A stretch of 64,000 nt of DNA, from contig NZ_JANIAC010000002.1 in NCBI RefSeq assembly GCF_024723255.1, positions 124,001-188,000 on the forward strand, in the 5' to 3' direction. Position 1 is the stretch's first letter; the number at the start of each line of letters is the position of its first letter. The translations under genes and the position numbers were made by a program. This DNA comes from Aestuariibaculum sp. M13. Lineage in GTDB: Bacteria; Bacteroidota; Bacteroidia; Flavobacteriales; Flavobacteriaceae. Of the stretch, positions 6,495-23,273 are shown piece by piece. The notes below the pieces were generated by a model, which was not told where the DNA came from, did not search any database, and saw only the letters and a list, made by a program, of their open reading frames with translations.

Positions 6495-6513
6495 CACTTT
6501 AGGTATTAGTATT

Positions 6514-6556
6514 TAAAAGTAATTAGTACAGGGAGTTGATGCAATGATATTTATCA
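6514..6556 (-). promoter_or_regulatory. TGAT-N4-ATCA operator plus -7 element (site A, USP operon)
   Basis: TGATATTTATCA lies at 6545-6556. On the minus strand the -7 element TACTTTTA (6521-6514) starts 29.5 nt from the centre of the palindrome, the same spacing as at the other sites of this window. The USP start codon follows about 24 nt later. Confidence 0.7.
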
Positions 6557-6566
6557 GATGGATTTA

Positions 6567-6607
6567 AAAAAAGGGAATGTTTTTAATAAAGAAACATTCC
6601 CTTTTTT
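6567..6607. terminator. Bidirectional terminator hairpin
   Basis: A perfect 16-bp inverted repeat, AAAAAAGGGAATGTTT (6567-6582) / AAACATTCCCTTTTTT (6592-6607), with a 9-nt loop. A- and T-runs on the two sides let it work in both directions. It separates the USP pair promoter from transcripts entering from the right. Confidence 0.75.
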
Positions 6608-6649
6608 CATCGCAAATCCTCAAGAAAGCGAACTGATCAATAGCCAATT

Positions 6650-6819
6650 TGAAACTAAAAGAAACAGGACGTTTTAACTTAACGGCCTGTTTCTTCTAAA
6701 GATTTAATGCTAAGCCTTGATTTTTGGCTTTCAACAATATGTATTTAGATTTTATAACTTGAAAAGCATTAAACCGTTTGTTGTTTTAGTTTGTCATTAA
6801 ATAAATGAACGTTTTATGG
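6650..6819 (-). ncRNA. Candidate small RNA under the stress regulator
   Basis: The 378-nt gap 6498-6875 has no plausible reading frame, yet it contains a complete promoter copy (site B) pointing left. The expected start is near 6819. Within the transcript AATGCT/AGCATT (6765-6770 with 6706-6711) can close a stem that encloses a smaller AAGCC/GGCTT hairpin (6712-6716 with 6726-6730). The transcript would end at a strong hairpin (6660-6694) followed by TTTTAGTTTC, giving roughly 160-170 nt. ATGs on this strand lead only to frames of a few codons. The RNA is inferred from promoter, structure and terminator; no homology to a known family is recognised. Confidence 0.45.
6660..6694 (-). terminator. 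Terminator of the candidate small RNA
   Basis: AGAAACAGG (6660-6668) pairs with CCTGTTTCT (6686-6694), extended inward by CGTT/AACG (6670-6673 with 6681-6684) across one mismatch. On the minus strand the stem is followed by TTTTAGTTTC. Confidence 0.65.
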
Positions 6820-6822
6820 TGT

Positions 6823-6865
6823 CGAAGATATTTTAACTTTTCAGTTTTAAAAATGATATTTATCA
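6823..6865 (-). promoter_or_regulatory. TGAT-N4-ATCA operator plus -7 element (site B, no ORF)
   Basis: TGATATTTATCA (6854-6865) has the same 12-nt sequence as site A. The minus-strand octamer TATCTTCG (6830-6823) starts 29.5 nt from the palindrome centre, exactly as at the gene-linked sites, although its TTCG is a weaker match to TAnnTTTG. It lies 11 nt past the 3' end of the membrane-protein gene and drives no reading frame. Confidence 0.55.
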
Positions 6866-6875
6866 GTCGTTAAAA

Positions 6876-7262
6876 TTATAACGGAACAACATTATAAGCC
6901 ATGTTTAAAAGAAATAATCCAACAAGAAATAAAAGCGTGTAAATAAGTTGAATAAGTTTAATGTTTATGATTTGTAATACGTAAACGGTTTGCTTTGGAA
7001 AAATAAAAAGCGATAATCCAATAAAAATGGAAAACCAGCCTGTAAGTGTAATGATTAACGTCCAGTTTGGTTCCCATATGTTATGAAAAAGGGTGTTTAC
7101 TAAACCTACAAGAATGGCTATAAAAGATGATAGAATGAGAAATTTTTCATCTTTCAAATCGCTGAAAATTTGTTTAATGCGTTTCGGGTTGAAACTCAAT
7201 ATCAGGAAGAATATGATGAGATACCATCCCCAGAATTTTGCTAATAAAATTGAAGTTTCCAT
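6876..7262 (-). CDS. Small four-helix membrane protein, unknown function
   Basis: The protein has 128 residues with four hydrophobic segments at about 8-24, 43-60, 67-87 and 103-125, and a short charged loop (NPKRIKQIFSDLKDEK, about 26-41). No family that I can name is recognised; it resembles small conserved inner-membrane proteins found beside stress genes in Flavobacteriia. The start codon is 5 nt from the stop of the preceding USP gene, so the two are co-transcribed from site C. A role in the stress response is inferred from that context alone. There is no signal peptide and no soluble domain. Confidence 0.75.
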   Translation of the reverse strand: METSILLAKFWGWYLIIFFLILSFNPKRIKQIFSDLKDEKFLILSSFIAILVGLVNTLFHNIWEPNWTLIITLTGWFSIFIGLSLFIFPKQTVYVLQIINIKLIQLIYTLLFLVGLFLLNMAYNVVPL

Positions 7263-7267
7263 AATAT

Positions 7268-8116
7268 TTAAGGTGTTTCATGTAATACTAAAAATGGTAT
7301 TTTTAAATGATAGCTTAATTCTTCAATTTGCGAATGAAATAAGATTTGCTGAAAATAGTTTAAGTTTTTGGCTACCATACAAATCATATTGATCTCTCTG
7401 CTATCAATAAAGCATTGTACAGCATCTTCTAATTTCCTGTTTGTTAAGTAGTGAAAACTAGATTCGATACAGGTAAAGTAATCTTCAAGCAATTCACGGT
7501 TTTTTAATTGTTCAGCATTTAAATCGGTTTTGTTTTTACTAATGTGTAATACGCGAAGAGATGCTTCGTTGTGTTCTAATATATCTAATAGTGGTTGGAG
7601 AATTTGAATGTTATAGGTTAGTGAAAAATCTGAAGGAAAAGCAATTTCCTTTATGGTGTTAAACGTTGCTTTTTCGGGAACTGTTAAAACATTACATTTT
7701 ACTTTTTTTATAACATCTCCTGTATTGCTTCCCATAACAATCTTTCTTAAACCATCGGAGCCTTTTGTACCCATAACAATAAGGTCTATATTTTTTTCTT
7801 CAACATGTTTCCGAATAGAGTCAATAAAGAAATTATAGTCAAACAGTGTATGGAATTTATGATTGGTGTTTGCCGGGAGTTCTGTTATTATACGTTTTAA
7901 AATGCTATGTAATTTTTGTTTAGTTGGTTTTACATAAACATCTTCTAGCACCTCCTCTGAAACGATATAAGGGGAGCCATTCATGTAATTCTCGCCAACT
8001 CTGTTAACATGCAGTAAATAAAAATGACATGTATCTTTTTCAAAAAAGTTAATAGCATACTTTATGGCATTCCATGAGTTCTCAGAAAAGTCCGTTGGTA
8101 AGAGTATATTTTTCAT
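7268..8116 (-). CDS. Universal stress protein, tandem USP domains
   Basis: This is the third double-USP protein, 282 residues. Domain 1 begins MKNILLPTDFSENSWNAIKY and carries the nucleotide-binding signature GTKGSDGLRKIVMGS and VKCNVLTVPE. Domain 2 (from about 160, EIAFPSDFSLTYN) lacks the glycine signature and ends LKIPFLVLHETP. The segment SSFHYLTNRKLEDAVQCF in domain 2 is not shared with the other two copies. It heads an operon with the small membrane protein and has its own TGAT-N4-ATCA promoter (site C). Three similar USPs within 3.4 kb point to local duplication followed by divergence. Confidence 0.92.
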   Translation of the reverse strand: MKNILLPTDFSENSWNAIKYAINFFEKDTCHFYLLHVNRVGENYMNGSPYIVSEEVLEDVYVKPTKQKLHSILKRIITELPANTNHKFHTLFDYNFFIDSIRKHVEEKNIDLIVMGTKGSDGLRKIVMGSNTGDVIKKVKCNVLTVPEKATFNTIKEIAFPSDFSLTYNIQILQPLLDILEHNEASLRVLHISKNKTDLNAEQLKNRELLEDYFTCIESSFHYLTNRKLEDAVQCFIDSREINMICMVAKNLNYFQQILFHSQIEELSYHLKIPFLVLHETP

Positions 8117-8137
8117 TTTAACAACATCTTAATATGT

Positions 8138-8180
8138 CTAAATTACAATGAAGATGTTGTTGCTAAAATGATATTCATCA
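8138..8180 (-). promoter_or_regulatory. TGAT-N4-ATCA operator plus -7 element (site C)
   Basis: TGATATTCATCA at 8169-8180 extends to an 18-nt palindrome AAATGAT-ATTC-ATCATTT. The minus-strand octamer TAATTTAG (8145-8138) starts 29.5 nt from the centre. The USP gene starts 29 nt further on. Confidence 0.7.
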
Positions 8181-8203
8181 TTTTAATGAGGTGAGCCAAA
8201 GCA

Positions 8204-9262
8204 TTAAGTAATGCTTTTTAATTTGTTAAGGTCTAATATTTTAATGTTTCGTCCTTCAGCAGAAATAATGCCCGATTTTTTAAATTCGGTTAGGGCTCTT
8301 ATTAAGGTTTCTGTTGCAATACCGGCAACACTGGCCAGGTCATTTCTTGAAATTTTTATAGGGTCGTCTGGCTTCCGATTTATTTTTTCAGCAAACTTTA
8401 AAATGGTTGAGGCGGTTTTTTTATTTACGGTTCCATAAGCCATTTGTAATAGTAATCCTTTGGCAGAGGAGAGGTCGTCGGTTAGTAATTCTATAAGCGC
8501 TAAAGCGACTTTGTGATTTTTATCCAGAAGTTCATTGAAGTGTAAAAGGGAGATGCCCAGTAATTTTGTATCTGAAATGGCCGAAGCAGTTTCTTTATGT
8601 GGCGCATTAGTGTTTAAGGAAGTGTAGCCAAACAAATCGTCTTCTTTATAAAGTGCGGTAACCAGTTCCTTGCCTTTTTCATCAATTCTAAAACATTTAA
8701 CTGTGCCATAGCTAATAAGGTAGATGAAATTAGAATGATCGCCTTCGTAGTAAATAATATCTTCTTCATTATACTTAAACTCCTTTCCGTGGTCATCAAA
8801 GAAATTTTTTAAATCGTTAAGCGATTTTATTTCGTTTTCTTCAGTATGCGCTGCTTCAGCAACTTGATTCTGGTGTTTTAAATCTTCCAGTATGGAAACT
8901 TTTGCTAACCGGCTTTCAATAGCACTTACAATATCGTCTTCAGTAAAGGGTTTTGTAATATAATCGTCAGCTCCAAGATTCATGCCTTTTCTAATGTCCT
9001 GTCGTTCAGTTTTCGCCGATAAAAATATAAACGGAATATGTTTAGTTGTACTTTGTTTAGACAGGGTTTGTAGCGTTGTATAACCATCCATAACAGGCAT
9101 CATAATATCGCAGATAATAATATCAGGGATTTGTTTTTTTGCCAGTTCAACACCTAAACGACCATTAGAAGCGGTTAAAACTTTGTAATTAGAGAGCTCT
9201 AAAAGTTCGGCTGTGTTTTCTCTTAAAACAGTATCATCTTCAATTAATAAAACAGTTTTCAT
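8204..9262 (-). CDS. Response regulator fused to Crp/Fnr-type DNA-binding module
   Basis: The protein has 352 residues. The receiver domain (1-120) has the acidic pair D9-D10, phospho-acceptor D52 (IICDIMMP), and K104 (ITKPF). A linker helix leads to a cyclic-nucleotide-binding-type beta roll (about 150-250, YYEGDHSNFIYLISYGTVK), a dimerisation helix (about 252-275) and an HTH_Crp domain (about 280-345). The recognition helix TETLIRALTEF has E318 and R322 where FNR has Glu209 and Arg213, the residues that read TGA/TCA; FNR Ser212 is Ile321 here. It has no cysteine cluster, so it is not an Fe-S sensor like FNR; the input is phosphorylation. The stop-start overlap (4 nt) with the kinase gene makes it the cognate partner. 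It is the best candidate for the protein that binds the TGAT-N4-ATCA sites. Confidence 0.93.
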   Translation of the reverse strand: MKTVLLIEDDTVLRENTAELLELSNYKVLTASNGRLGVELAKKQIPDIIICDIMMPVMDGYTTLQTLSKQSTTKHIPFIFLSAKTERQDIRKGMNLGADDYITKPFTEDDIVSAIESRLAKVSILEDLKHQNQVAEAAHTEENEIKSLNDLKNFFDDHGKEFKYNEEDIIYYEGDHSNFIYLISYGTVKCFRIDEKGKELVTALYKEDDLFGYTSLNTNAPHKETASAISDTKLLGISLLHFNELLDKNHKVALALIELLTDDLSSAKGLLLQMAYGTVNKKTASTILKFAEKINRKPDDPIKISRNDLASVAGIATETLIRALTEFKKSGIISAEGRNIKILDLNKLKSIT

Positions 9263-11139
9263 GGTGTGGCTGTATTTGGAAAAGTTATTATGAAGGTAGA
9301 ACCAATATGTTCTTTAGTTTCAAAACAAATAGAACCACCTAAGTTTTCTAAGTGGTTTTTAACGATATTTAAGCCAATGCCAGTGCCTTGGGTGTTGAGT
9401 ACATTTTCGGCTCTGAAATAGCGTTCAAATATATGTTTCTGGTCTTTTTCAGGAATACCAATACCTTGATCTATAACTTTAATGGTTGTAGTGTTATTGT
9501 TTTGTTTTACAATAAGTTCAATGCTTGTGCTTTCGTGTGAATATTTTATAGCATTATAAAGCAAGTTGGATAAAATAAGCTGAATTATTTTTTCATCCTG
9601 GTATATCGATAAATCATCAATATTTTCAGGGTATTTAATTTGCTGCCCTTCTTTTAAATGCATATTCGCATCGTAAACCGCCTCGTTAATAACCTTGCTG
9701 AGTTTAAAATGACTAAAGCGGTAATTTACTTTACCCGTTTCCAGTTTTTCAACCGATAAAAAGTCGTTAAGAATATTATTTAGGAAATGAACTTTATCTA
9801 CAACAGTTTTAATGTGTTTGTTGCGCTTGTCTTGCTGTTCCTCTAGCTGATATTTGTTTAATAATTCACAGGATGTTAAAATAGCACTTAGCGGTGTTTT
9901 GAATTCATGGGATACTAACGATAAGAAGCTTGTTTTGAGTTCGTTGAGTTCCTTTTCTTTGTTCAGGGCTTTTTCTAATTGTTTGGTTCGTTCTTCAACC
10001 TGATTTTCAAGATTCGTGGTATAGTTTTTACGTTCGGTAATATCTAAAATAATGGCGACCAACACATCCATTTCATTTAAACGTGATAGCTGAAGGTGCA
10101 CTTCAATAGGGTATTCGCTGCCATCTTTTCTTTTGTGAATACTTTCAAATTCTAATTTCTCTATATCTTTTTTTAATAAAGATTTGATTGTTTTTCTGAA
10201 GTTAGATTCGGTTTCACTCTTAGTTAAATCTAAAGGCGTCATCGCTTTTAGTTCTTCTAAACTGTAACCTATATTTTTCTGAGCTCCATAATTAGCATTT
10301 ACAAACTTTAAAGTGTGAGCATCGAAAACGTAAATTTCGTTAAGAGATTCATCGAAGATGGTAGCCAGGTGAAGGCGCTCTTCTTCGGCTATTTTCTTTG
10401 TTGTAACATCGTTTTGTATGCCCACAAAATTAGAGACAACACCTCTGGAATTGGTTATCGGGAAAATGTATAAATCGTTCCAGAACATGGAACCGTCTTT
10501 TCGGTAATTACGAATGGTAATTTGGCAACTTTCTCCTTTTTGTAAGGCTTCGTTGAGTTTTTTTATAGCCTCTTGTTTGGTGTCTTTGCCTAAAAGAAAT
10601 CTAAAATTATGATTTAGAATTTCTTCCTCAGGATATCCTGTTAAGTTTTGAAAACTGGAATTAAAATAGATTATGGGGTTGTCCTTTTTTAAAGCGTCGG
10701 TAATGAAAATGCCACTTTTAGCAGATTCCAAAGCCTGCGTTCGCAACATCAGGTTTTTTTCTACTTCTTTCCGTTTAGAAATATCATTAATTAAGGCGAT
10801 AACAAAGTTTTGATTGTAACTTTTAAACGGATTTAATTCAATATCAATAGGGAAGATAGTACCATCTTTTTTTAACCCGTAAATGTCGGCAGACTCTGTC
10901 ATTTTACGACGTTTACCTTCCTCAATAAACCGTTGAAAATAGTTATGATGATTGATGTGATAATTTGAAGGGATAAGTACATTAAGAGGTTTGCCTATTA
11001 ATTCCTCCCTGGTATATCCAAATATGGCTTCAGAAGCCGCATTCACTTCTCTTAATATTTGATGACTATCAACTATAACCACGCCTTCTGATACGGTTTC
11101 TAATAGAATGTTAAATATTTCCTGATCTTGGTGAAACAT
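9259..11139 (-). CDS. Hybrid-free PAS sensor histidine kinase with a LOV-like domain
   Basis: The protein has 626 residues and no membrane segment, so it is a cytoplasmic sensor. PAS1 (about 8-125) and PAS3 (about 253-372) are ordinary PAS/PAC domains. PAS2 (about 135-248) is LOV-like: NHNFRFLLG matches the flavin-site motif of LOV domains, and NYRKDGSMFWND plus FVGIQNDVT are the other two LOV signatures. F179 occupies the position of the adduct-forming Cys. A coiled coil (about 374-402) links to HisKA with H411 (SHEFKTPL) and the ATPase domain (about 510-622; N529, DQGIGIP, GTGIGL). It should phosphorylate the REC-Crp regulator, whose gene overlaps its 3' end by 4 nt. The signal is unknown; redox, a small ligand or light through a flavin are possible. 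Confidence 0.92.
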   Translation of the reverse strand: MFHQDQEIFNILLETVSEGVVIVDSHQILREVNAASEAIFGYTREELIGKPLNVLIPSNYHINHHNYFQRFIEEGKRRKMTESADIYGLKKDGTIFPIDIELNPFKSYNQNFVIALINDISKRKEVEKNLMLRTQALESAKSGIFITDALKKDNPIIYFNSSFQNLTGYPEEEILNHNFRFLLGKDTKQEAIKKLNEALQKGESCQITIRNYRKDGSMFWNDLYIFPITNSRGVVSNFVGIQNDVTTKKIAEEERLHLATIFDESLNEIYVFDAHTLKFVNANYGAQKNIGYSLEELKAMTPLDLTKSETESNFRKTIKSLLKKDIEKLEFESIHKRKDGSEYPIEVHLQLSRLNEMDVLVAIILDITERKNYTTNLENQVEERTKQLEKALNKEKELNELKTSFLSLVSHEFKTPLSAILTSCELLNKYQLEEQQDKRNKHIKTVVDKVHFLNNILNDFLSVEKLETGKVNYRFSHFKLSKVINEAVYDANMHLKEGQQIKYPENIDDLSIYQDEKIIQLILSNLLYNAIKYSHESTSIELIVKQNNNTTTIKVIDQGIGIPEKDQKHIFERYFRAENVLNTQGTGIGLNIVKNHLENLGGSICFETKEHIGSTFIITFPNTATP

Positions 11140-11206
11140 GAATGATTTTAAGTTAGGAATGGTTACTTAAAAATACGAAAAAATCAACTTTAAATGTTAA
11201 TGTAAC

Positions 11207-11249
11207 TGATGAATATCATTACAAAAACACTCTATAGCGTGTATTTTTA
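11207..11249 (+). promoter_or_regulatory. TGAT-N4-ATCA operator plus -7 element (site D)
   Basis: TGATGAATATCA (11207-11218) is followed on the + strand by TATTTTTA (11242-11249), 29.5 nt from the centre. The TerB-like gene starts at 11271. In the other direction, toward the kinase gene, no TAnnTTTG-like octamer occurs at this spacing. Confidence 0.7.
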
Positions 11250-11270
11250 TTGTAATAAAAACGCGACGTC

Positions 11271-11678
11271 ATGGAAACTACAAAGAAATTAACCCATACC
11301 TTTTACCAAAATCTTGGTAAGCTATTTTATGCCATTGCGGCTTCCGATAATCAGGTGAGACAAACAGAGTTTAATAAGCTGAAAGCATTAGTGAAAAGCA
11401 ATTGGTTAGACATGGACCCTTTAGTGGATGAATTTGGTACAGATGCAGCTTACGAGATAGAAATTGTTTTCGACTGGCTAAACGCACAACAAGCATTAAA
11501 CGTTAATACTTGTTTTAATGATTTTGTGACTTATAAAAACGCTCAACCTCATCTGTTCACTCCCGAGGGTAAAAAACTCATTTTAAAAACAGCTCATGCT
11601 GTAGCCGATGCTTTTTCAGGCATTAATAAGTCTGAATTAATCCTTTTAGCGAAGTTAGATTTGGAATTGAAAAAATAG
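11271..11678 (+). CDS. TerB-like helical protein
   Basis: This is a 135-residue, all-helical, soluble protein. The N-terminal part (LGKLFYAIAASDNQVRQTEFNKL) and the C-terminal KKLILKTAHAVADAFSGINK resemble the two halves of TerB/DjlA-type domains, in which acidic residues near such helices bind metal. TerB proteins are linked to tellurite resistance and general envelope stress; their biochemistry is poorly known. It is transcribed alone from site D, divergently from the kinase-regulator operon, and is followed by another TGAT-N4-ATCA promoter. The family assignment rests on the overall pattern only. Confidence 0.65.
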   Translation: METTKKLTHTFYQNLGKLFYAIAASDNQVRQTEFNKLKALVKSNWLDMDPLVDEFGTDAAYEIEIVFDWLNAQQALNVNTCFNDFVTYKNAQPHLFTPEGKKLILKTAHAVADAFSGINKSELILLAKLDLELKK

Positions 11679-11723
11679 CACATGATCCTTTTGGTATAAG
11701 ACTAAAAACGTCAGATTTCACTC

Positions 11724-11766
11724 TGATATATATCATTTTATTATTGGTATAAACGCTTTAATTTAG
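11724..11766 (+). promoter_or_regulatory. TGAT-N4-ATCA operator plus -7 element (site E)
   Basis: The fully self-complementary 12-mer TGATATATATCA lies at 11724-11735. TAATTTAG (11759-11766) starts 29.5 nt from its centre and is identical to the octamer at site C. It drives the five-gene cbpA operon starting at 11789. Confidence 0.72.
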
Positions 11767-11788
11767 GAAATACTTTAATAAGAAAACC

Positions 11789-12676
11789 ATGGCTTATATA
11801 GATTATTATAAGGTATTAGGAATGTCGAAAACAGCTTCCGAAAACGATATTAAAAAAGCGTACAGGAAGTTAGCAAGAAAATATCACCCTGACTTAAATC
11901 CTAATGATGCTGAGGCCGAAAAGAAATTCAAAGAAATTAACGAGGCTAACGAAGTTTTAAGCAACCCTGAGAATCGTAAAAAATACGATCAGTATGGAGA
12001 GCACTGGCAACATGCCGAAGAATACGAAAAAGCAAGACAGCAGGAACAGTACCATCGTCAGCATCAAAGTGATGGTGGTCGTTATTCTGAAGAGGATTTT
12101 TCAGAGTTTTTTGAGAATATGTTTGGTGGCGCCGGAAGAGCTTCAGGTGGCCGACAAGTTAAGTTTAGAGGACAGGATTTCAACGCAACACTTCAGCTGG
12201 ATTTAAAAGATGTATATGCCACACACAAGCGCACTTTAACAGTAAACAATAAGAATATTAGAATTACAATTCCGGCAGGTGTTGAAAACGGTCAAATCAT
12301 TAAAATTAAAGGTCATGGCGGTAAAGGCATTAATGGCGGACCAAATGGTGATTTGTACATTCAGTTTTCTATTGAAAACCATTCAAAATTTAAACGCGAC
12401 AAAGATAATCTTTATACAAATGTAGATTTGGATTTGTACAAAGCTTTATTAGGAGGAGACATTATGGTTGACACGTTTACCGGAAAAGTAAAACTTACAG
12501 TAAAACCGGAAACTCAAAGCGACACCAAAGTAAAATTAAAAGGCAAAGGATTTCCTAAATATAAAATGGAAGGGCAGTTTGGTGATTTAATCATTACCTA
12601 TAAAATTATTTTGCCAACCAAACTTTCTGAAAAAGAAAGAGCACTGATAGAACAATTACAAACCTTAAGAACCTAA
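11789..12676 (+). CDS. cbpA: CbpA-like DnaJ (Hsp40) co-chaperone
   Basis: The protein has 295 residues. The J domain (about 4-68) has the HPD tripeptide at 33-35 ([10 protein letters not shown]) that stimulates DnaK ATPase. A flexible G/F-like segment (about 70-125) follows, then two C-terminal substrate-binding beta domains (about 128-285). There is no CxxCxGxG zinc-finger region, so this is a type II DnaJ like E. coli CbpA rather than DnaJ proper. CbpA acts under starvation or stress with DnaK and also binds curved DNA. The next gene encodes a CbpM-like modulator overlapping by 1 nt (TAATG), the same pairing as in E. coli. First gene of a five-gene operon under site E. Confidence 0.92.
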
Positions 12677-12972
12677 TGGAAACAACAGATTTTATATCGG
12701 TACAACTTATTTGCAAGCATTATAATATTCCACAGGACTTTATAAACAGGTTACAGGAATTTGAGTTAATAGAATTAAAGATGGAATCAAACGATTTTTT
12801 TATTCATAAAACAGAATTGAAAAGGGTTGAAAAAATGGTTCGGTTGCATTACGATTTAGATATTAATATGGAAGGTATTGATGCAATTTCTAATCTCTTA
12901 GATCAGGTAGATAGTTTGAAAAAGCAAATAACAAACCTGAACAACAGATTGCGTTTGTATGAGGATTTTTAA
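12676..12972 (+). CDS. cbpM: CbpM-like chaperone modulator
   Basis: This is a 98-residue protein of the CbpM / MerR_2 type: a winged-helix-like N-terminal half (VQLICKHYNIPQDFINRLQE, FFIHKTELKRVEKMVRL), then a helical C-terminal half with a coiled-coil end (LLDQVDSLKKQITNLNNRL). In E. coli CbpM binds the J domain of CbpA and inhibits both co-chaperone and DNA-binding activity. The start codon overlaps the cbpA stop codon, which strongly supports coupled translation and a shared function. Confidence 0.88.
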   Translation: METTDFISVQLICKHYNIPQDFINRLQEFELIELKMESNDFFIHKTELKRVEKMVRLHYDLDINMEGIDAISNLLDQVDSLKKQITNLNNRLRLYEDF

Positions 12973-12981
12973 ATAGCAGCC

Positions 12982-14473: not shown

Positions 14474-14489
14474 TTAAAAACATACTCTA

Positions 14490-15710: not shown

Positions 15711-15766
15711 GGGTTTTAAAATCATGATTTTATGATTTAGGCTTTTGGGTTGTAAGTGTAAAAAAC

Positions 15767-15809
15767 TGATGTTCATCATTTTACATTTTTTATTATCTCA
15801 ATAGATTTA
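15767..15809 (+). promoter_or_regulatory. TGAT-N4-ATCA operator plus -7 element (site F)
   Basis: TGATGTTCATCA (15767-15778) is followed by TAGATTTA (15802-15809), 29.5 nt from the centre. The PepSY-like gene starts at 15838. Confidence 0.7.
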
Positions 15810-15837
15810 ATCGTATTAACCCGTAAAGATTAGAATC

Positions 15838-16335: not shown

Positions 16336-16398
16336 AATCCTTATGATTCTAATGTGTTAAACATAGCTAGACCAGATAAAATATTAAATCTTAAAATT

Positions 16399-17067: not shown

Positions 17068-17080
17068 GTATTTTCTAAAG

Positions 17081-17125
17081 AACAACTAAAAGTATGATAC
17101 AAATACAATTATGCTTTTAGTTGTT
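17081..17125. terminator. Bidirectional terminator between convergent genes
   Basis: AACAACTAAAAG (17081-17092) is complementary to CTTTTAGTTGTT (17114-17125); the latter is followed by TTCTTTTT. It serves the BON gene and overlaps the stop codon of the convergent mlaD-like gene. Confidence 0.55.
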
Positions 17126-18103
17126 TTCTTTTTCAGCTTTCTTTTGCTGACGCTCTAATTTTCTAAAATAACCACGAGTTAAAAAGTTGTGTTTTAAAGC
17201 CTCCATGTTCTGATTGAAGTTATCCGTGCCTTCGTTTATATTTTTTATGGATTGCTCCAGGTTTTTTACAAATTCTTCATCGTTAAAAAGGTAGTTTACC
17301 GCGCCATTTCCATTTCTGTAGTCGGAAATCGTTTCGTTTAGATTATTAATGACTGTTTTAATCTCTTCGGTTGAGGTTTCAAGGTTTGTAAGTACAGCAC
17401 TTACTTTTTGGGCTTCAATAGAATCGTTAAGCAATTTGCCTGCAACACTTTCATCAAAATTCACGGAGTTTATTATAGTATTTAATTCTCGCATGGCTTT
17501 ATTGGCTTCAATACTCATGATTCGCAATTGGTTTACGGTTTGTTTTAAATTTGAGGCTACTAAAGTGTCGTTAATCAACATACCCAAGGTTCCTTTATCA
17601 TCCGACATGGCATCGGCTACATTAAGCAATTTTGCTGTTAATAGGGCGGCATTTTCATTGGTTACATTTAAGGTGTTTAACATTTCGCTCGTGCCTATTT
17701 TCGTGTAGGTTTTAATTACATCGCCCGATGAAATCATTTCAGCATCACCTTTTCCTGGAATAATATTTACAATCATATTACCCACAAGTCCGTCTGTACT
17801 AATGGTGGCAATCGCATCTTTTTTTATATGTTGAACCATTTTTTCATCGATAACCATATTTACGTTTATGGTAGAATCGTTAATCATGAAAATGGTTTTT
17901 ACGGTTCCAATATTAATACCCGAATACCTTACATTATTACCTTGCATAAGGCCATTTACGTTAGTGAAATTAGCACTTATGGAGAAGGTTTTAACAAACA
18001 TGTTTTGTCGGTTGCCAATTAAATAGACAGCAACCACAAAAAGTATTAAACCAATAACAACAAAAAGGCCTAAATTCAGTTTTTGATTATTTGTTTGTTT
18101 CAT
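17117..18103 (-). CDS. MCE-family lipid transport protein (MlaD-like)
   Basis: The protein has 328 residues. One N-terminal transmembrane helix (LGLFVVIGLILFVVAVYLIG, about 12-31) anchors a periplasmic MCE domain (about 38-118: ANFTNVNGLMQGNNVRYSGI). The remaining 200 residues are helical and coiled coil. MCE proteins form hexameric tunnels that carry phospholipids between the inner and outer membrane, powered by an MlaEF-type ABC transporter, here encoded by the two genes just upstream (12-nt gap). No periplasmic MlaC or outer-membrane MlaA gene is present, as is usual for Bacteroidetes loci. Confidence 0.88.
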   Translation of the reverse strand: MKQTNNQKLNLGLFVVIGLILFVVAVYLIGNRQNMFVKTFSISANFTNVNGLMQGNNVRYSGINIGTVKTIFMINDSTINVNMVIDEKMVQHIKKDAIATISTDGLVGNMIVNIIPGKGDAEMISSGDVIKTYTKIGTSEMLNTLNVTNENAALLTAKLLNVADAMSDDKGTLGMLINDTLVASNLKQTVNQLRIMSIEANKAMRELNTIINSVNFDESVAGKLLNDSIEAQKVSAVLTNLETSTEEIKTVINNLNETISDYRNGNGAVNYLFNDEEFVKNLEQSIKNINEGTDNFNQNMEALKHNFLTRGYFRKLERQQKKAEKENN

Positions 18104-18115
18104 GACTCTAAATAT

Positions 18116-18898
18116 TTATTTAAAGAATGCTTTTACTTTATCGTCTTTAGAAGCTCTTAAATCTTCAAAAGTACCTTCGGCATAATTAACACCTTCAACC
18201 AATAAAATCATCCGTTCCGATACGACACGTGCGCAATCGACATCGTGGGTAATTATAAGCGATGACGTTTTATATTGTTTTTGTACGCGACGCATGAGTT
18301 CTATAATTTCTTTTGATGTAATCGGGTCTAAACCACTTGTAGGTTCGTCGTATAAAATGATTTTAGGTTTTAGTATTAATGTTCTGGCTAATGCCACGCG
18401 TCTTTGCATACCACCGGAAAGCTCATTGGGCATAAGGTCTATAGTGTTTGCAAGACCAACATTTTCTAAAGCTTCTAAAACCAGGGGTTCGGTGTCCGTA
18501 ATATTGCCAAATTTGTGTTTGTGCCGTCTTAGCGGAAATTCTAAATTTTCCCGAACCGTCATAGAATCGTATAAAGCACTTCCTTGAAACAGGAATCCGA
18601 TTTCGGTTCGAAGTTTATCTAAATCCATGCGATTTAAGGTGTTGATGTCTTGCCCCATAACATTAATGCTACCGGAATCGGGCAGCATTAAACCAACCAG
18701 ACATTTTACCATTACCGATTTACCCGCGCCCGATCTGCCCATAATTACGAGATTTTCACCTTCGTATAGTTTTAGGTTGAATCCGTTTAACACTGCTTTA
18801 TCACCAAACGATTTTTTCAAATTTTTGATTTCAAGAATAGGTTGTTTAACCTGTAAACTTTCAATTGAATGTGATATGTTATGTGTTTCGATCATCAT
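18116..18898 (-). CDS. ABC transporter ATPase of lipid uptake system (MlaF-like)
   Basis: The protein has 260 residues and all ATPase motifs: Walker A GRSGAGKS (54-61), Q loop (GFLFQGS), signature LSGGMQRR, Walker B IILYDEPTSGLDP, and the switch His (IITHDV). The sequence pattern is that of MlaF/Ttg2A. It drives lipid movement through the MlaE-like permease, whose stop codon abuts this start, and the MCE protein encoded next. Two adjacent ATGs (18898, 18895) are possible starts. It belongs to a three-gene operon read from site G. Confidence 0.92.
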   Translation of the reverse strand: MMIETHNISHSIESLQVKQPILEIKNLKKSFGDKAVLNGFNLKLYEGENLVIMGRSGAGKSVMVKCLVGLMLPDSGSINVMGQDINTLNRMDLDKLRTEIGFLFQGSALYDSMTVRENLEFPLRRHKHKFGNITDTEPLVLEALENVGLANTIDLMPNELSGGMQRRVALARTLILKPKIILYDEPTSGLDPITSKEIIELMRRVQKQYKTSSLIITHDVDCARVVSERMILLVEGVNYAEGTFEDLRASKDDKVKAFFK

Positions 18899-19669
18899 TT
18901 AAATTTCAAAGAAAATATCGGTTACAAACACAGCTATAAAGTCGATAATAAAGAGCAACATGGATGAAAAAACCACCGCCGAATTGGCTGCTAAACCTAC
19001 ACCAACCGTACCTTTTTCGCAATAATATCCTTTAAAACAGCCTACCAGTCCTATGGCAAATCCAAAAAAATAGGTTTTAATAGTCGCTGGGATTAAATCT
19101 CCAAACTCTAAAGCATTAAAAACCTTATTAAAATATAACAGAAAGGAAACGTCTCCCTTTAAATTCTCTATAATGTAAGACCCGTAAAGCGCAATGGCAT
19201 CGCCTAAAACAACCAGAATAGGAAGCATTAAAGTGGTAGCCAGAATACGAGTTACTACCAAAAACTTAAACGGATTGGTACCTGAAACTTCCATAGCATC
19301 AATTTGTTCGGTAACACGCATAGATCCCAATTCGGCACCAATACCAGAAGCAATACGCCCAGCGAAGGTTAGAGCAATAATTACAGGGCCAATTTCACGA
19401 ATTATAGAAATACTAACCATGGAAGGCATCCACGATTCCGCTCCGAATTCTTCTAAAGTGGGACGGGTTTGTAAAGTAATAACCAAGCCAATTATGAAAC
19501 CCGTAACTCCAACTAATAATAAAGACCGGTTACCAATGTTATAGCACTGTTTGAGTAGCTCATTAAATTCAAAAGGTTTATTAAAAAGCTCTTTAAAGAA
19601 CCTTTTGGTAAAATAAGTGAGTTCACCAATTTCTATAAAAAAGGATTTTATTTTAGTTGGTTTTAGCAT
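18899..19669 (-). CDS. ABC transporter permease of lipid uptake system (MlaE-like)
   Basis: The protein has 256 residues and five to six transmembrane helices. The conserved MlaE core is clear: IGLVITLQTRPTLEEFGAES, then SISIIREIGPVIIALTFAGR and GAELGSMRVTEQIDAMEVSG, where Glu residues near the coupling helix contact the ATPase. It is first in an mlaEFD-type operon that keeps outer-membrane lipid asymmetry in known systems. Its start codon lies 26 nt behind the -7 element of site G, so envelope lipid traffic appears to be tied to the same regulator as the USP and chaperone genes. Confidence 0.92.
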   Translation of the reverse strand: MLKPTKIKSFFIEIGELTYFTKRFFKELFNKPFEFNELLKQCYNIGNRSLLLVGVTGFIIGLVITLQTRPTLEEFGAESWMPSMVSISIIREIGPVIIALTFAGRIASGIGAELGSMRVTEQIDAMEVSGTNPFKFLVVTRILATTLMLPILVVLGDAIALYGSYIIENLKGDVSFLLYFNKVFNALEFGDLIPATIKTYFFGFAIGLVGCFKGYYCEKGTVGVGLAANSAVVFSSMLLFIIDFIAVFVTDIFFEI

Positions 19670-19687
19670 TGCATGTGTTTCTATATT

Positions 19688-19730
19688 TAAAGTTATAATA
19701 GCAATGACACATATAAAATGATTAAAATCA
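19688..19730 (-). promoter_or_regulatory. TGAT-N4-ATCA operator plus -7 element (site G)
   Basis: TGATTAAAATCA (19719-19730). On the minus strand TAACTTTA (19695-19688) starts 29.5 nt from the centre. It drives the mla-like operon. The octamer is identical to that of site I on the + strand. Confidence 0.7.
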
Positions 19731-19821
19731 TTTGGTTAATTAGGTTAAGTTACTAAAATTAAGTGTAAAACAAATATTACTAACCTTTAAAAGGAAAAGT
19801 ATATGTAAAGTGGTTTAAAAC

Positions 19822-19864
19822 TGATATTCCTCATTGCAAAACAGTTAGTTTGTTATGATATTTA
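19822..19864 (+). promoter_or_regulatory. TGAT-N4-ATCA-like operator plus -7 element (site H)
   Basis: TGATATTCCTCA (19822-19833) has one mismatch in the right half. GATATTTA (19857-19864) sits at the standard 29.5-nt spacing and deviates from TAnnTTTG at the first base. It drives the coiled-coil gene at 19888. This is the weakest of the gene-linked sites. Confidence 0.55.
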
Positions 19865-19887
19865 GTAGAATCTTAAACTAAATAGTC

Positions 19888-20490
19888 ATGAAAAACAAGG
19901 ATATTCATTTTGTCGATCGGGTAATAGATGCTCTTAGAAAATCGGCTACCGAACTTGAGGAATTTCAGGTACAGGCTGCTTTAGGAAAAGCAGAGGCTCA
20001 AGATAAATATGAAGAGGTTAAGAAAAAATTTAATCAATTCATTCACGATAACGAACATAAAATAAAAGATGTTAAAGAGAAAATAGAAGAATTGCACACT
20101 AAATTCGATCAGCTTCGTGTACAATTAGCATTAGGTAAAGCAGAAACCAAAGACATGTTTAAAAAACAAAAAAAACAGCTGCTGGCTATAATACATGATA
20201 TAGAAACTAAAATAAAAACCAACGAAACGTTAAATAGAATGTATGCACTAACGCTTATTGAAATGGAGCAGTTTAAAATACAACTGGAAATTTTAGAGCA
20301 AAAATTCAATAAGGAAAAACCGGAGGCTAAGGCGTCTTTCGAACAAGGGAAAAAAGACTTCAATACTTTTATAGATAAGTTTAGAAGTAAATACACCCAA
20401 AAGAAAGAAGAAACCAAATTGGAGCATTTTCAAAATGAAATATCTGCAGCCTACGACCATTTTAAAAAAGCATTTTCAATGCCAAACTAA
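19888..20490 (+). CDS. Coiled-coil protein with internal repeats, unknown function
   Basis: The protein has 200 residues, highly charged, with no signal peptide or membrane segment, and is almost entirely helical. Three related units can be seen: FQVQAALGKAEAQDKYEEV (about 26-44), LRVQLALGKAETKDMFKKQ (about 76-94) and a more diverged FKIQLEILEQKFN.. unit (about 131-165), each followed by a helix ending in F.I-type residues. No family is recognised. It may be a structural or apolipoprotein-like stress protein that coats membranes or partners, but this is a guess. It is monocistronic, from site H to a strong terminator, divergent from the mla-like operon. Confidence 0.75.
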   Translation: MKNKDIHFVDRVIDALRKSATELEEFQVQAALGKAEAQDKYEEVKKKFNQFIHDNEHKIKDVKEKIEELHTKFDQLRVQLALGKAETKDMFKKQKKQLLAIIHDIETKIKTNETLNRMYALTLIEMEQFKIQLEILEQKFNKEKPEAKASFEQGKKDFNTFIDKFRSKYTQKKEETKLEHFQNEISAAYDHFKKAFSMPN

Positions 20491-20504
20491 TTATAACCTC
20501 TCTG

Positions 20505-20544
20505 AAAAAGAAAAGCACAATTTAAAGTTGTGCTTTTCTTTTTT
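20505..20544. terminator. Bidirectional terminator between convergent genes
   Basis: AAAAAGAAAAGCACAA (20505-20520) / TTGTGCTTTTCTTTTT (20528-20543), loop 7 nt. A- and T-rich flanks serve both the coiled-coil gene and the convergent AarF gene. Confidence 0.85.
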
Positions 20545-20571
20545 GGTGGAACGTTATTTTATGAATACTCT

Positions 20572-22275
20572 TCAGTAATCGTAATCGCCTTTTTTTATAT
20601 TAGAGAGCATGCCAAAACCTAATAGAAAAGCAATGACGAAACAAATAATTCCAATTACAGATATACCTTTCCAAAGCGGAAGAATTTTAAAGGCTATAAA
20701 CAGAGAGGCGCCAACAATTAAAGCAACCATAATAAAGGCTGTTATGAGCTGTTTAGTTATTCTTTGAAGGGTGTGAACCATAGGATCAATGCCCTTGTGG
20801 GTAAGATCTACTTTTATTTGACCAGAATTTATTTTTCGAATGGCATTTTTTAAATCCATTGGAAATTCTTCAATATAATCGGTAAGTTCTACAATAGAAT
20901 TTATGACTTTTTTTCCCATTTTTATAGGATTGTATTTTCTGGTGGCACTGGCTGTTAAATAGGGTTTTGCAATTTCAAATTGTTCTAAATCCGTATCCAG
21001 TTTTTCAATAACACCTTCAATGGTTACTAAGGAACGTGCAAAAAGGAAAAAGTAAGTTGGCACTTTTAATCCGTGAGAAATAATAATATCTTTTAGTTCC
21101 AATAGTACCGTGCTCATTTCGTTATCATGAATATCACGCACGTAATATTTTTCTACAAACTCATTAATATCAAACTCCAGATCTCTGCGGTTTGCAATTG
21201 GAGCATTATTGGAAAGAGCTTGTAAGACTTTGATTATTTTCTTTACATCCTTATCGGTAATAGCCATAAATAATCTTCCAAAAATTGTAATATCTCGAGG
21301 GAGCATACTACCCATCATGCCAAAATCTAAATAGCAAATATGGTTGTTTGGGAGCACTAATAAATTGCCAGGATGTGGATCGGCATGAAAGAAACCATAT
21401 TCGAAAATTTGTTTGTAAAAGCTAATGCTTAAACGTCTGGCAATAATTTTCGTGTCAACATTTTTAGCCTTAAGTTCTTCAATTCTATCAATTTTAATTC
21501 CAGATACAAATTCCAATGCCAGAACTCTTGAGGTTGTAAATTCCTGATACACTTTAGGAGCTTGAGCAAATTGTTCCAAAGAATCGTCTTTTTTAATGTT
21601 ATTATAAAATCGTTGAACGTTAATGGATTCATGAATAAAGTCGAGTTCTTTTAAAATAGAGGATTCAAAATTTTTAACTAAGCCAACAGGATCAAAACTT
21701 TTTAATGAAGGAATTCTGTGCTCTAGAATTCTGGCAATTTTGTACATGACTTTAATATCTTCAACAATAACATCATGAATGCCTGCACGTTGGATTTTTA
21801 AAGCAATTCGTTTGCCAGAGTGCAAGGTTACTTTGTGAACCTGTGCCATTGAAGCCGATGCAAAAGGGGTAGGCTCAAACCAAGCAAACAGATGTTCTAC
21901 AGAATTTTTTAATTCGGTTTCCACAACTTCCTTGGCTAAATCTTCAGACATAGGAGGTACATTGTCCTGAAGTTTTTCAAGTTCGATGGTCAATTCCAAA
22001 GGAACCAAATCGGGGCGGTTACTTAAAATTTGACCAAACTTCACAAAAGTAGGGCCTAATTCTTCGCAAACTAATCGCATTTTAGCCCATTTGCTATACT
22101 GTGCAACATGTTTTTTTGTGCTGTTAGGAATGAATTTTTGAATGAAAGTATAGCGTTTGTTTTCTTCCAGATAATGTACTAAATCCTCAAAGCCATATTT
22201 CATCAAGACTTTAAGAATCTGGTTATATCTGGAAAAGGATTTAAAACGTTTTGTTATGTCGGTTACGATTCCCAT
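20572..22275 (-). CDS. AarF/ABC1/UbiB-family atypical kinase
   Basis: The protein has 567 residues. The family-specific N-terminal motif (TFVKFGQILSNRPDLVP, about 76-92, the KxGQ region) is followed by the Ala-rich loop FASASMAQVHKV (138-149) replacing the usual P-loop, catalytic K160 (ALKIQ), the catalytic loop HADPHPGN (297-304) and DFG (317-319). Two C-terminal transmembrane helices (about 505-560) anchor it. Known members (UbiB, Coq8) support ubiquinone or other isoprenoid lipid metabolism through ATPase activity. The phasin-like gene lies 4 nt upstream and is co-transcribed, as often seen for Bacteroidetes AarF genes. Confidence 0.9.
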   Translation of the reverse strand: MGIVTDITKRFKSFSRYNQILKVLMKYGFEDLVHYLEENKRYTFIQKFIPNSTKKHVAQYSKWAKMRLVCEELGPTFVKFGQILSNRPDLVPLELTIELEKLQDNVPPMSEDLAKEVVETELKNSVEHLFAWFEPTPFASASMAQVHKVTLHSGKRIALKIQRAGIHDVIVEDIKVMYKIARILEHRIPSLKSFDPVGLVKNFESSILKELDFIHESINVQRFYNNIKKDDSLEQFAQAPKVYQEFTTSRVLALEFVSGIKIDRIEELKAKNVDTKIIARRLSISFYKQIFEYGFFHADPHPGNLLVLPNNHICYLDFGMMGSMLPRDITIFGRLFMAITDKDVKKIIKVLQALSNNAPIANRRDLEFDINEFVEKYYVRDIHDNEMSTVLLELKDIIISHGLKVPTYFFLFARSLVTIEGVIEKLDTDLEQFEIAKPYLTASATRKYNPIKMGKKVINSIVELTDYIEEFPMDLKNAIRKINSGQIKVDLTHKGIDPMVHTLQRITKQLITAFIMVALIVGASLFIAFKILPLWKGISVIGIICFVIAFLLGFGMLSNIKKGDYDY

Positions 22276-22279
22276 GGTA

Positions 22280-22648
22280 TTAAGCTTCCATTTTGTTCAA
22301 TCTGGCCTCCAAAAGCGCAACAGCTGTGTCCAGCTTTTCAATTTTTTCATTTAGGGCTTTGATTTCATCTAAGTGAGCTACATTTATTTTTTTATAAAAC
22401 TTAGCCACCAGTTCTTCAATTTTAGTATCTAATTCTTCTTTGAATTCATGGGTTTTTAAAAAAATCTTATCCATAAATTCCAGTTCATTTCCATTTTCAT
22501 CCAACTGAGATTCGGCCATTGCTTTGTTGATGTTATCTTTTCCTTTTTCGGAATACTCATTTAGTTTTTCTAAAAATTTAGTGTCTCTGGCCAAAACATA
22601 TAAACTAGAACTTAAAGTGAGTAATTCTATGATGGTTTTAGTTTTCAT
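22280..22648 (-). CDS. Small helical, phasin-like protein
   Basis: This is a 122-residue helical protein with a coiled-coil C terminus (LNEKIEKLDTAVALLEARLNKM, 96-120 region). It resembles short phasin-like or poly(hydroxyalkanoate) granule-associated family proteins that precede AarF/UbiB genes; the assignment is loose. It starts the operon with the AarF kinase. Its start codon is about 107 nt from the minus-strand -7 element of site I, so the leader would be near 95 nt, longer than for the other genes of the set. Confidence 0.65.
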   Translation of the reverse strand: MKTKTIIELLTLSSSLYVLARDTKFLEKLNEYSEKGKDNINKAMAESQLDENGNELEFMDKIFLKTHEFKEELDTKIEELVAKFYKKINVAHLDEIKALNEKIEKLDTAVALLEARLNKMEA

Positions 22649-22747
22649 AACTATATTTTTTATTGATCATATTTACAGAAGAAAATGTGCTGTTTTAGTT
22701 GTTGTTAATCTTTTGTATGTAAGACTACACTTAACTTATACTTGTAT

Positions 22748-22790
22748 TAAATGTATTAACAATTATGGTTTTTTAACATGATATATATCA
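22748..22790 (-). promoter_or_regulatory. Leftward promoter of the shared operator (site I, minus side)
   Basis: The palindrome TGATATATATCA (22779-22790) also has TACATTTA on the minus strand (22755-22748) at the same 29.5-nt spacing. One operator could therefore activate both the AarF operon and the CBS-domain operon. Confidence 0.5.
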
Positions 22791-22821
22791 TGTGAGAAAA
22801 GCGCTTTAAGTTCTAACTTTA
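22779..22821 (+). promoter_or_regulatory. TGAT-N4-ATCA operator plus -7 element (site I, plus side)
   Basis: TGATATATATCA (22779-22790) flanked as CATGATATATATCATG, a 16-nt perfect palindrome. TAACTTTA (22814-22821) starts 29.5 nt from its centre. The CBS-domain gene starts at 22850. Confidence 0.72.
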
Positions 22822-22849
22822 AGTGTTGGATAAACTAAATAATTGCGCC

Positions 22850-23257: not shown

Positions 23258-23273
23258 AAGATTTAAAGTATCA

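Follow-up and report, generated by a model that had tools for sequence, protein, structure and literature searches.

How a series of TGAT-N4-ATCA palindromes came to stand at one constant distance from the promoters of universal stress protein (USP), DnaJ-like and envelope genes, and which regulator reads them, are the questions raised by this locus. In the window (the whole 64-kb stretch of DNA that was analysed), we counted 12 exact palindromes, compared with 1.65 ± 1.31 in 100 dinucleotide shuffles (largest count, 5). Eight of these precede promoters between 6.5 and 22.8 kb, each 29.5 nt from the promoter box (Table 1); the other four, at 11060, 36877, 43863 and 47103, lack a TAnnTT box at this spacing.

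Table 1. Operators, genes and RNA of the island (window coordinates)
Feature	Coordinates	Strand	Description
Operator A	6545..6556	-	octamer TACTTTTA 6514-6521; upstream of USP 5646-6497
Operator B	6854..6865	-	octamer TATCTTCG 6823-6830; upstream of structured RNA
Operator C	8169..8180	-	octamer TAATTTAG 8138-8145; upstream of USP 7268-8116
Operator D	11207..11218	+	octamer TATTTTTA 11242-11249; upstream of 135-aa ORF 11271-11678
Operator E	11724..11735	+	octamer TAATTTAG 11759-11766; upstream of DnaJ/CbpA-like 11789-12676, then MerR_2/CbpM-like 12676-12972, MscS-like 12982-13902, CDP-alcohol phosphatidyltransferase 13889-14473, metallophosphatase 14490-15710
Operator F	15767..15778	+	octamer TAGATTTA 15802-15809; upstream of 165-aa ORF 15838-16335, BON protein 16354-17067
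Operator G	19719..19730	-	octamer TAACTTTA 19688-19695; upstream of MlaE-, ABC- and MlaD-type genes 17117-19669
Operator H	19822..19833	+	one mismatch; octamer GATATTTA 19857-19864; upstream of 200-aa ORF 19888-20490
Operator I	22779..22790	two-way	rightward octamer TAACTTTA 22814-22821, genes: CBS protein (ATG 22850), YkuD L,D-transpeptidase 23274-24179; leftward octamer TACATTTA 22748-22755, genes: phasin-like (below cut-off) 22280-22648, ABC1/AarF 20572-22275
REC-cNMP_binding-HTH_Crp_2 response regulator (REC-Crp)	8204..9262	-	Pfam PF00072, PF00027, PF13545
Histidine kinase	9259..11139	-	FixL-like PAS1, LOV-like PAS2, PAS3, HisKA, HATPase_c; 4-nt overlap with REC-Crp gene
Structured RNA gene	6655..6818	-	covariance-model match 6659-6780; predicted start ~6818, end ~6655

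Operators at a fixed distance from promoters

The observation of operators with a fixed promoter spacing, made in a preliminary description of this DNA, is confirmed and is larger than first described. Eight of the nine palindromes listed there are exact and that at 19822 has one mismatch, as claimed, and the spacing of 29.5 nt from the palindrome centre to the first base of the octamer was recovered at 10 of 10 promoters. A TAnnTTTG-like octamer, said to accompany every site, is present except at 19822, where GATATTTA departs from TAnnTT; on the kinase side of operator D, the octamer TTTTTTCG is a poor match. Start codons lie 24-36 nt away at eight promoters (24, 29, 29, 30, 36, 26, 31 and 36 nt), as described, the 36 nt of the rightward promoter of 22779 counting to ATG 22850, not to GTG 22823, and the leftward promoter of the same site has the reported 107 nt between the first base of its octamer and the start codon. 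Site B (6854) indeed has no ORF downstream but is not an orphan, being followed by a structured RNA. The close spacing of the genes behind operator E (11789-15710) suggests that they form one operon, and the 200-aa ORF behind operator H has a weak, below-cut-off match to the sll1863 stress family.

A class II activator typically has its palindrome centred at -41.5, over the -33 region, and the position near -41 proposed for these sites agrees with the computed one. According to the available part of PMC9723704, the TAnnTTTG box of Flavobacterium psychrophilum spans -12 to -5, which puts the operator centre at -41.5; with start positions taken from this species, the centre falls at the class II position in all ten promoters. 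Positions -35 to -33 read TT(T/G) in the promoters with fixed spacing. The TGAT-N4-ATCA core is that of FNR/Crp-type sites, as described, and the outer bases are unlike the FNR/FixK box consensus, TTGAT-N4-ATCAA: among 173 promoters from the loci of relatives, the base before the core is C (0.60) or A (0.30) and that after it is T (0.92), so that the outer positions of the FNR/FixK box do not recur in promoters whose core matches by selection.

These 173 promoters come from 54 genomic regions that surround homologues of the candidate regulator, in which 173 of 492 oriented cores have a TAnnTT at offset 35, compared with 2-18 cores at each of the 57 other offsets tested. A scan of 256 four-mers with 9 inner gaps and 20 promoter gaps ranked TGAT/4/23 first (175), the runner-up, excluding shifts of the top palindrome, reaching 39; around the loci of a distant regulator clade (~40% identity), TGAT is not dominant. 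In the records of relatives, the site precedes USP genes in 31 of 33, WG-repeat genes in 16 of 21 and HSP20 genes in 12 of 15, as well as 24 of the 28 members of the 135-aa ORF family and all four MlaE genes in the fetched records.

The genome-wide scan of the own genome (4.16 Mb) for the core, a 23-nt gap and TANNTT bore out the expected enrichment, with 18 occurrences compared with none for the backwards-read control and a chance expectation of ~3.2 (278 oriented cores, window base composition). Half of the matches (9/18) lie inside this cluster; two of the nine outside it fall within genes, and thus the genome-wide count includes chance hits. Other sites outside the cluster precede genes for HSP20, a CBS protein, pyruvate phosphate dikinase, a multicopper oxidase-cytochrome c protein, an ATP-cone protein and a pyridoxamine-oxidase-like protein ~9 kb from fnr, several of which plausibly fit a low-oxygen role. 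At C5:462202, strand and Pfam matches rule out HPP as the gene behind the site and identify the multicopper oxidase-cytochrome c protein.

The structured RNA behind operator B

The window RNA (6659-6780) scores 44.9 bits (E 6.8e-6) with covariance model R1 and 38.3 bits (E 1.1e-4) with model R2, and lies below the reach of the R2 genome search at E 1e-5. The fold of 6645-6819 has a z of -4.4, and a hairpin and a T-run are present at the locus. In relatives, units of ~180 nt occur singly or in tandem (1-5 units) with strong covariation, and an operator at the fixed spacing precedes 31 of the 38 RNA arrays tested; the window RNA is one diverged unit.

In window positions 4500-24500 and six loci, Rfam 15 gave no match at the gathering score, and L044 12300-13600 gave sub-threshold matches only. 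Tandem Repeats Finder reported no array in L044 or L029, probably because the units are over-diverged; the repeats were detected by a hairpin search. Six loci (L046, L025, L158, L160, L146 and L147) yielded no full-length sense match with default filters and a match with filters off, and L020 yielded none in either setting. The default filters of the RNA models therefore drop real copies, and absence from loci searched only with defaults is weak evidence. With filters off, the 11 loci searched among the 21 of the distant regulator clade yielded no RNA, the remaining 10 having been searched with default filters only, and neither did L033, L034, L040 or L041, four near relatives without LOV; L041, a candidate from the hairpin search, was rejected as a family member by this model search. 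The promoter and terminator consensus scan added nothing and missed the two minus-strand terminators, and a crude match count between the RNA leader and messages shows nothing.

REC-Crp, Fnr and the operator core

The best-supported candidate regulator is REC-Crp, paired with the adjacent PAS kinase. All three Pfam matches of REC-Crp are over the cut-off and define a protein with Crp/Fnr superfamily domains and a receiver; its recognition helix reads ATETLIR, and an alignment of relatives places the predicted phosphorylation-site Asp in the DIMMP region. PAS1 of the kinase matches FixL (1d06, E 1.5e-15), whose heme-PAS has a proximal His and a distal Arg. The aligned His is present in the window kinase and in 29 of 34 kinases compared; its loss from PAS1 was considered and is ruled out by the alignment. 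At the position of the Arg, the window kinase has Ala; Arg itself occurs in 0 of 24 LOV-bearing and 7 of 10 LOV-less kinases. A LOV domain occurs in 24 of the 34 kinases, and 20 of these 24, a set that includes the window kinase, have the LOV Cys. The photoactive Cys (NCRFLQ), lost in this genus, is absent from window PAS2, which has F179 instead.

Co-occurrence was tabulated in 199 genomes for REC-Crp and Fnr only among the Crp/Fnr paralogues, with Fnr scored absent if no match to the own Fnr (C5:299602-300276) reached E <= 1e-40. Sites were divided into T-type (ATCATT flank) and A-type (ATCATA). The mean number of T-type sites (genomes at least 90% complete, raw counts that ignore kinship) is 0.20 with neither regulator (n=25), 0.98 with Fnr only (n=58), 3.63 with REC-Crp only (n=35) and 6.33 with both (n=43), and that of A-type sites is 0.36 with neither, 1.91 with Fnr only and 3.14 with REC-Crp only. 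Site counts thus follow the presence of REC-Crp, even in genomes with no detected Fnr. Of the 127 T-type sites listed in 20 genomes, 79 are no more than 50 kb away from REC-Crp, compared with 3.8 expected; there are 0 or 1 T-type sites in 13 of 86 REC-Crp genomes. Co-occurrence and clustering back the reading of these sites as a regulon driven mainly by REC-Crp. The notion of a single regulator survives in this form and not as sole control, given that Fnr-only genomes keep sites of the same geometry, ATCATA being commoner than ATCATT. This rules out a motif unique to REC-Crp, and a site alone is therefore no proof of REC-Crp control.

Fnr appears to use the same operator core. E-(S/T)-x-I-R is common to the recognition helices of both proteins. 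The identical cores and the presence of both main effects in the 2x2 regulator table would fit equal weight for REC-Crp and Fnr on the same sites, integrating kinase and Fnr signals; we consider this the less likely arrangement, given that flank bias and clustering point to a partial division of labour. Among USP promoters, A stands at the second position behind the core in 4 of 53 cases from REC-Crp loci and in 12 of 14 from Fnr-only genomes. REC-Crp also goes with more A-type sites, so the flank shows a bias rather than a strict code. The flanking bases fall at about -35 to -33, and the bias could therefore stem from part of a -33 element in the promoter and not from regulator preference.

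That Fnr regulates the cluster, with REC-Crp merely a member of the island, is unlikely. The shared helix, the sites of Fnr-only genomes, some of them before USP genes (14 of 30 USP loci with one core mismatch allowed, 5 of 30 with exact cores), and the plausible low-oxygen genes behind own-genome sites outside the cluster speak for it; the excess of T-type sites in the 35 near-complete REC-Crp genomes with no detected Fnr, the clustering of sites around REC-Crp and the difference in USP flanks speak against it. We regard as very improbable that the sites are repressor operators, or serve another function with the spacing a coincidence: with TT(T/G) at -35 to -33, some promoters could themselves carry part of a -33 box, but the palindrome over the -33 region has the class II activator layout. 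Chance in AT-rich DNA, to which the two own-genome matches within genes might be credited, is negligible as an explanation of a palindrome count that none of the 100 shuffles equalled and of the spacing peak in relatives.

A candidate stress pathway and its counterparts

It is probable, in our assessment, that REC-Crp reads the palindromes as class II operators serving kinase-driven activation of stress genes and the RNA, and the shared operator and distance most likely allow one sensor-kinase pathway to switch them jointly. In the proposed sequence of events, the kinase, with its FixL-like heme-type PAS domain joined in many relatives by LOV, would phosphorylate REC-Crp at its receiver, and the resulting phosphorylated dimer would bind (C/A)TGAT-N4-ATCATT centred at -41.5 and recruit RNA polymerase to TAnnTT promoters with at most a partial -33 box. 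The predicted targets are universal stress proteins, the DnaJ/CbpM-like operon with MscS, genes of envelope lipid transport and repair, and the structured small RNA, a list like that of a survival programme for general stress or low oxygen. Fnr, as a separate protein, would read the same core and share, or have once held, part of the regulon.

The FixK palindrome has the TGAT-N4-ATCA core seen here. The FixL-FixJ-FixK system of Rhizobiales and Caulobacterales (PMC4999443) resembles the proposed pathway in having a heme-type PAS kinase at the top and a Crp/Fnr-family activator, lacking an Fe-S cluster, at the bottom, alongside which some genomes have an Fnr-type regulator. Here, the receiver and FixK-like domains are predicted in one protein, and a separate FixJ step would therefore not be needed; the outer operator bases also differ, and the predicted targets comprise stress proteins and an RNA instead of redox and nitrogen-fixation genes. 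The FNR and Anr regulons share the core half-site, the class II position and USP-type targets, which are known for Anr, but REC-Crp has a receiver where FNR has its N-terminal cysteine region, and its sites read (C/A)TGAT..ATCAT, not TTGAT..ATCAA. Stress control by the alphaproteobacterial LOV-HK and Bacillus YtvA acts through a sigma-factor switch. Both place a LOV or LOV-derived sensor above a broad stress programme (literature including PMC6798134), as may be the case here, whereas the output here would be a Crp-family activator on TAnnTT promoters and the window LOV lacks the Cys. Listeria LhrC exemplifies tandem or multicopy small RNAs, which resemble the present family in their multiple units of similar structure and, as proposed here, in their control by a stress-linked regulator; the RNA described here differs in having no Rfam family at the gathering score. 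A search of titles and abstract beginnings, mostly outside subscription journals, retrieved no paper on REC-Crp/FixL-LOV in Bacteroidetes or on the TGAT-N4-ATCA operator rule, a weak sign of novelty for the system.

To our knowledge, Bacteroidota have neither sigma-S nor sigma-B. A wider proposal, which we advance tentatively and hold at somewhat less than even, is that a FixL/LOV-type kinase and a REC-Crp fusion replace an alternative sigma factor in a stress and low-oxygen programme of Flavobacteriaceae, light-responsive in some genera, with an RNA arm (a new, often tandem ~180-nt family under the same class II promoter, acting in trans on mRNAs or trapping a protein) and a regulon acquired in part from Fnr, the bases beside the core changing in the process. 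The system would offer a concrete candidate pathway for the coordination of general stress responses in Bacteroidota, together with an operator rule suited to sequence scans, and it adds an RNA family with strong covariation. In some genera, its sensor may unite two domains, a PAS of the oxygen type and a LOV for blue light, and the contrast between Fnr and REC-Crp may reveal how a single operator core comes to be shared, and divided, between related activators.

Promoter geometry in the window and its relatives

The preliminary description, in which TGAT-N4-ATCA operators at a fixed distance from a promoter octamer were assigned to one regulator, proved right as an observation and largely right as an interpretation, except that two regulators seem to use the one operator core and that the promoter of site B (operator at 6854-6865) is followed by a structured RNA. 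The window contains 12 such palindromes against 1.65 expected, a number reached in 0 of 100 shuffles. The cluster at 6545-22790 comprises eight exact palindromes and one with a mismatch, and the proposed spacing holds throughout: the centre lies exactly 29.5 nt from the first base of the octamer in 10 of 10 cluster promoters. For the other exact palindromes (11060, which lies within the kinase gene, 36877, 43863 and 47103), the window scan detected no TAnnTT box at this distance. In the suggested genome-wide scan, core, spacing and TAnnTT together occur 18 times in the Aestuariibaculum sp. M13 genome, compared with ~3.2 predicted from base composition and 0 in the backwards-read control. Nine of these occurrences fall in the 6.5-22.8 kb cluster and nine elsewhere, two of the latter being intragenic (see Table).

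A homologue scan with the REC-Crp response regulator (8204-9262, minus strand) returned 80 loci, of which 54 (L019-L072) were used, the nearest coming from Aestuariibaculum, Hyunsoonleella, Aestuariivivens and Algibacter. Across these 54 loci, TAnnTT is found at offset 35 from the site start (the 29.5-nt geometry) after 173 of 492 oriented cores, and 2 to 18 times at each of the other offsets from 12 to 69. When 4-mers, inner gaps and promoter gaps were all scanned, TGAT/4/23 ranked first with 175. Shifted versions of this palindrome, such as ATGA/6/22 and GATA/2/24, are among the entries; the highest count for any other entry was 39. The consensus of the 173 promoters (the window and 33 near relatives) is AAA(C/A)-TGAT-(A/G)(T/A)AT-ATCA-TTT, then TAnnTT(T/A)(A/G), and 155 of them are followed by an ATG-started ORF, usually beginning 22-48 nt from the first base of the octamer. 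The TT(T/G) directly 3' of the core sits at about -35 to -33 and may in part be a -33 promoter element. In a distant regulator clade (21 loci, about 40% identity), ATGA-N6-TCAT leads at unchanged geometry with 17, ahead of TGAT and TGAC (9 apiece); thus, the half-site detail shifts and the spacing stays. The window system would be a variant of the known class II activation.

Proposed regulators of the operator, and the sensor kinase

The five HTH_Crp_2 matches in the genome are REC-Crp, an Fnr-like protein and three others. The gene for the Fnr-like protein adjoins a heavy-metal ATPase gene, which we read as CcoI-like, and the recognition helix E-(S/T)-x-I-R is common to REC-Crp and Fnr. Among 199 family genomes (198 genera), REC-Crp was found in 86 and Fnr in 119. 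Sites were split by the second base after the core (T-type or A-type), and the mean numbers per near-complete genome are 0.20 T-type and 0.36 A-type with neither regulator (n=25), 0.98 and 1.91 with Fnr only (n=58), 3.63 and 3.14 with REC-Crp only (n=35), and 6.33 and 3.77 with both (n=43); p-values on these means assume independent genomes. T-type sites number 0 or 1 in 13 of the 86 REC-Crp genomes. Of 127 T-type sites whose positions were listed, from 20 genomes, 79 are no more than 50 kb away from REC-Crp, against an expected 3.8. The universal stress protein (USP) gene served as a within-family test of the flank base: A is the second base after the core in 4 of 53 USP promoters at REC-Crp loci, compared with 12 of the 14 geometry-correct sites found, with one mismatch allowed, at 30 USP loci of Fnr-only genomes (5 sites are exact). 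Given the co-occurrence, the clustering near REC-Crp and the USP flank difference, we read REC-Crp as the main regulator of the cluster and Fnr as a user of the same operator class, which modifies the assignment of all sites to a single regulator. The flank-base difference could stem partly from the promoter instead of the protein, and USP genes were perhaps under Fnr control first.

In 34 of 34 near-clade records, REC-Crp is immediately preceded by a PAS histidine kinase gene; in the window, which is one of these records, the two genes overlap by 4 nt. The best PDB match of PAS1 is FixL (E 1.5e-15); a His aligned with the heme-ligand His of FixL is present in 29 of 34 kinases, including that of the window. 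PAS2 of the window kinase best matches LOV proteins. A LOV-type PAS2 occurs in 24 of 34 kinases, 20 of which have the photoactive Cys; this position is F179 in the window, and F and I in the two closest relatives. Arg at the FixL distal-Arg position is found in 0 of 24 LOV-containing compared with 7 of 10 LOV-less near-clade kinases. A reasonable reading of these sequences is that an oxygen-type kinase gained a LOV domain in one lineage, its oxygen pocket being loosened, and that photochemistry was later lost in the kinase of this genus. As described in PMC4682037, Cys-less LOV proteins can still signal via flavin photoreduction, so that a flavin redox or light role of the window PAS2 is possible.

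The structured RNA behind site B

It had been noted that site B precedes no ORF. Indeed, the promoter at 6854 has none, but two hairpin-plus-T-run elements lie downstream, and the RNA at 6645-6819 has a fold z of -4.4. Equivalent positions in relatives hold ~180-nt units, 1-5 in tandem, with a terminal hairpin of the type GAAACAGGAAG..CTTCCTGTTTC. In an alignment of 31 units (30 distinct), 32 pairs were defined, with compensatory changes in 18 compared with 8.4 in shuffles; 95.5% of cells are paired, and 42-56% once the partners are slid. With 60 units placed on the model, in a structure-fitted alignment, compensatory changes appear in 27 of 32 pairs compared with 14.3 in shuffles. With the first model, the window copy reaches 44.9 bits (E 6.8e-6), and with the updated one 38.3 bits (E 1.1e-4); it was missed at E 1e-5 in the genome search; therefore, it is a diverged member. 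Rfam 15 gave no gathering-score match for window 4500-24500 or six loci.

The RNA was found in 31 of 199 genomes at E <= 1e-3, namely 26 of 86 with REC-Crp and 5 of 113 without; the other 60 REC-Crp genomes yielded none at this sensitivity. In 19 of the 26 genomes with both, the best copy lies within 5 kb of a REC-Crp gene. In an order-wide search of 246 genomes, five reach E <= 1e-5, of which four belong to the same family. An operator with exact spacing precedes 31 of 38 arrays tested; the seven exceptions are two arrays in L144, one in each of L150, L151, L152 and L153, and, of the L148 array, the second half. Offset 35 was matched 33 times and other offsets at most 3. This count leaves out seven arrays found only with filters off (L046, L025, L158, L160, L146 and two in L147); L146 and the second L147 array lack an exact-spacing site upstream, which the other five have. 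The operators of the RNA and of a USP gene in L155 are related variants, TGACGGTCGTCA and TGACCGTCGTCA.

TGAC-N4-GTCA-like operators precede RNA units in L155, L147, L142 and L143, and in L155 a USP gene too. L148 (G125:C1:3858000-3877000) is a second island: it combines 10 sites of the correct geometry (counted with a relaxed core) with four USP matches and an RNA array of four units, and the single REC-Crp detected in its genome is ~480 kb away. RNA copies also occur in L149 (genome G138) and L150 (G142), from genomes in which a search for REC-Crp at E <= 1e-50 gave no match; the former has an operator upstream, and the latter none in the stretch.

A leader of the next gene is an unlikely identity for the RNA because the next same-strand gene, where seen, is 324-3308 nt from the octamer. 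The RNA may act in trans or, alternatively, trap a protein. A second hairpin with a T-run, at about 6565-6600 (minus strand), sits just upstream of operator A and may serve as an insulator between the RNA gene and the USP promoter.

Features of the proposed regulon, its RNA and its kinase (target counts are for the 34 near-clade records)
Feature	Location	Strand	Occurrence or remark
Structured RNA	window 6655-6818	-	came to light in explaining site B
Tandem RNA arrays (1-5 units)	L044:12504-13426, L042, L038, L029, L031, L026, L070		beside REC-Crp
Residues 64, 84, 179	kinase 9259-11139		FixL-aligned PAS1 residues and the position of the LOV Cys (F179 here)
Recurrent target USP			site before 49/122 genes, 31/33 records
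Recurrent target 135-aa ORF			site in 24/28
Recurrent target WG-repeat protein			site in 16/21
Recurrent target HSP20			site in 12/15
Recurrent target DnaJ/CbpA			site in 6/15
Recurrent target ribonucleotide reductase large subunit			site in 4/5
Recurrent target MlaE			site in 4/4
Own-genome site outside cluster	upstream of HSP20 gene
Own-genome site outside cluster	upstream of CBS protein gene
Own-genome site outside cluster	upstream of pyruvate phosphate dikinase gene
Own-genome site outside cluster	upstream of multicopper oxidase-cytochrome c protein gene
Own-genome site outside cluster	upstream of pyridoxamine-oxidase-like gene		~9 kb from fnr
Own-genome site outside cluster	upstream of ATP-cone protein gene
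Own-genome site outside cluster	upstream of 127-aa ORF		no Pfam match

Putative targets of the regulon

An ORF could be assigned to 149 of 175 promoters in the 34 near-clade records; several further window targets occur only once among these records. An exact site precedes the kinase gene in just 3 of 34 records; autoregulation through this geometry is therefore not a general feature. Two adjacent small ORFs at window 3924-4510 (plus strand) give the impression, by sequence, of a RelE/HigB-type toxin and an antitoxin. The window system would be a variant of the FixL-FixJ-FixK cascade, compressed into two proteins, and since its targets resemble sigma-S-type functions and low-oxygen survival genes, we call the regulon a stress programme.
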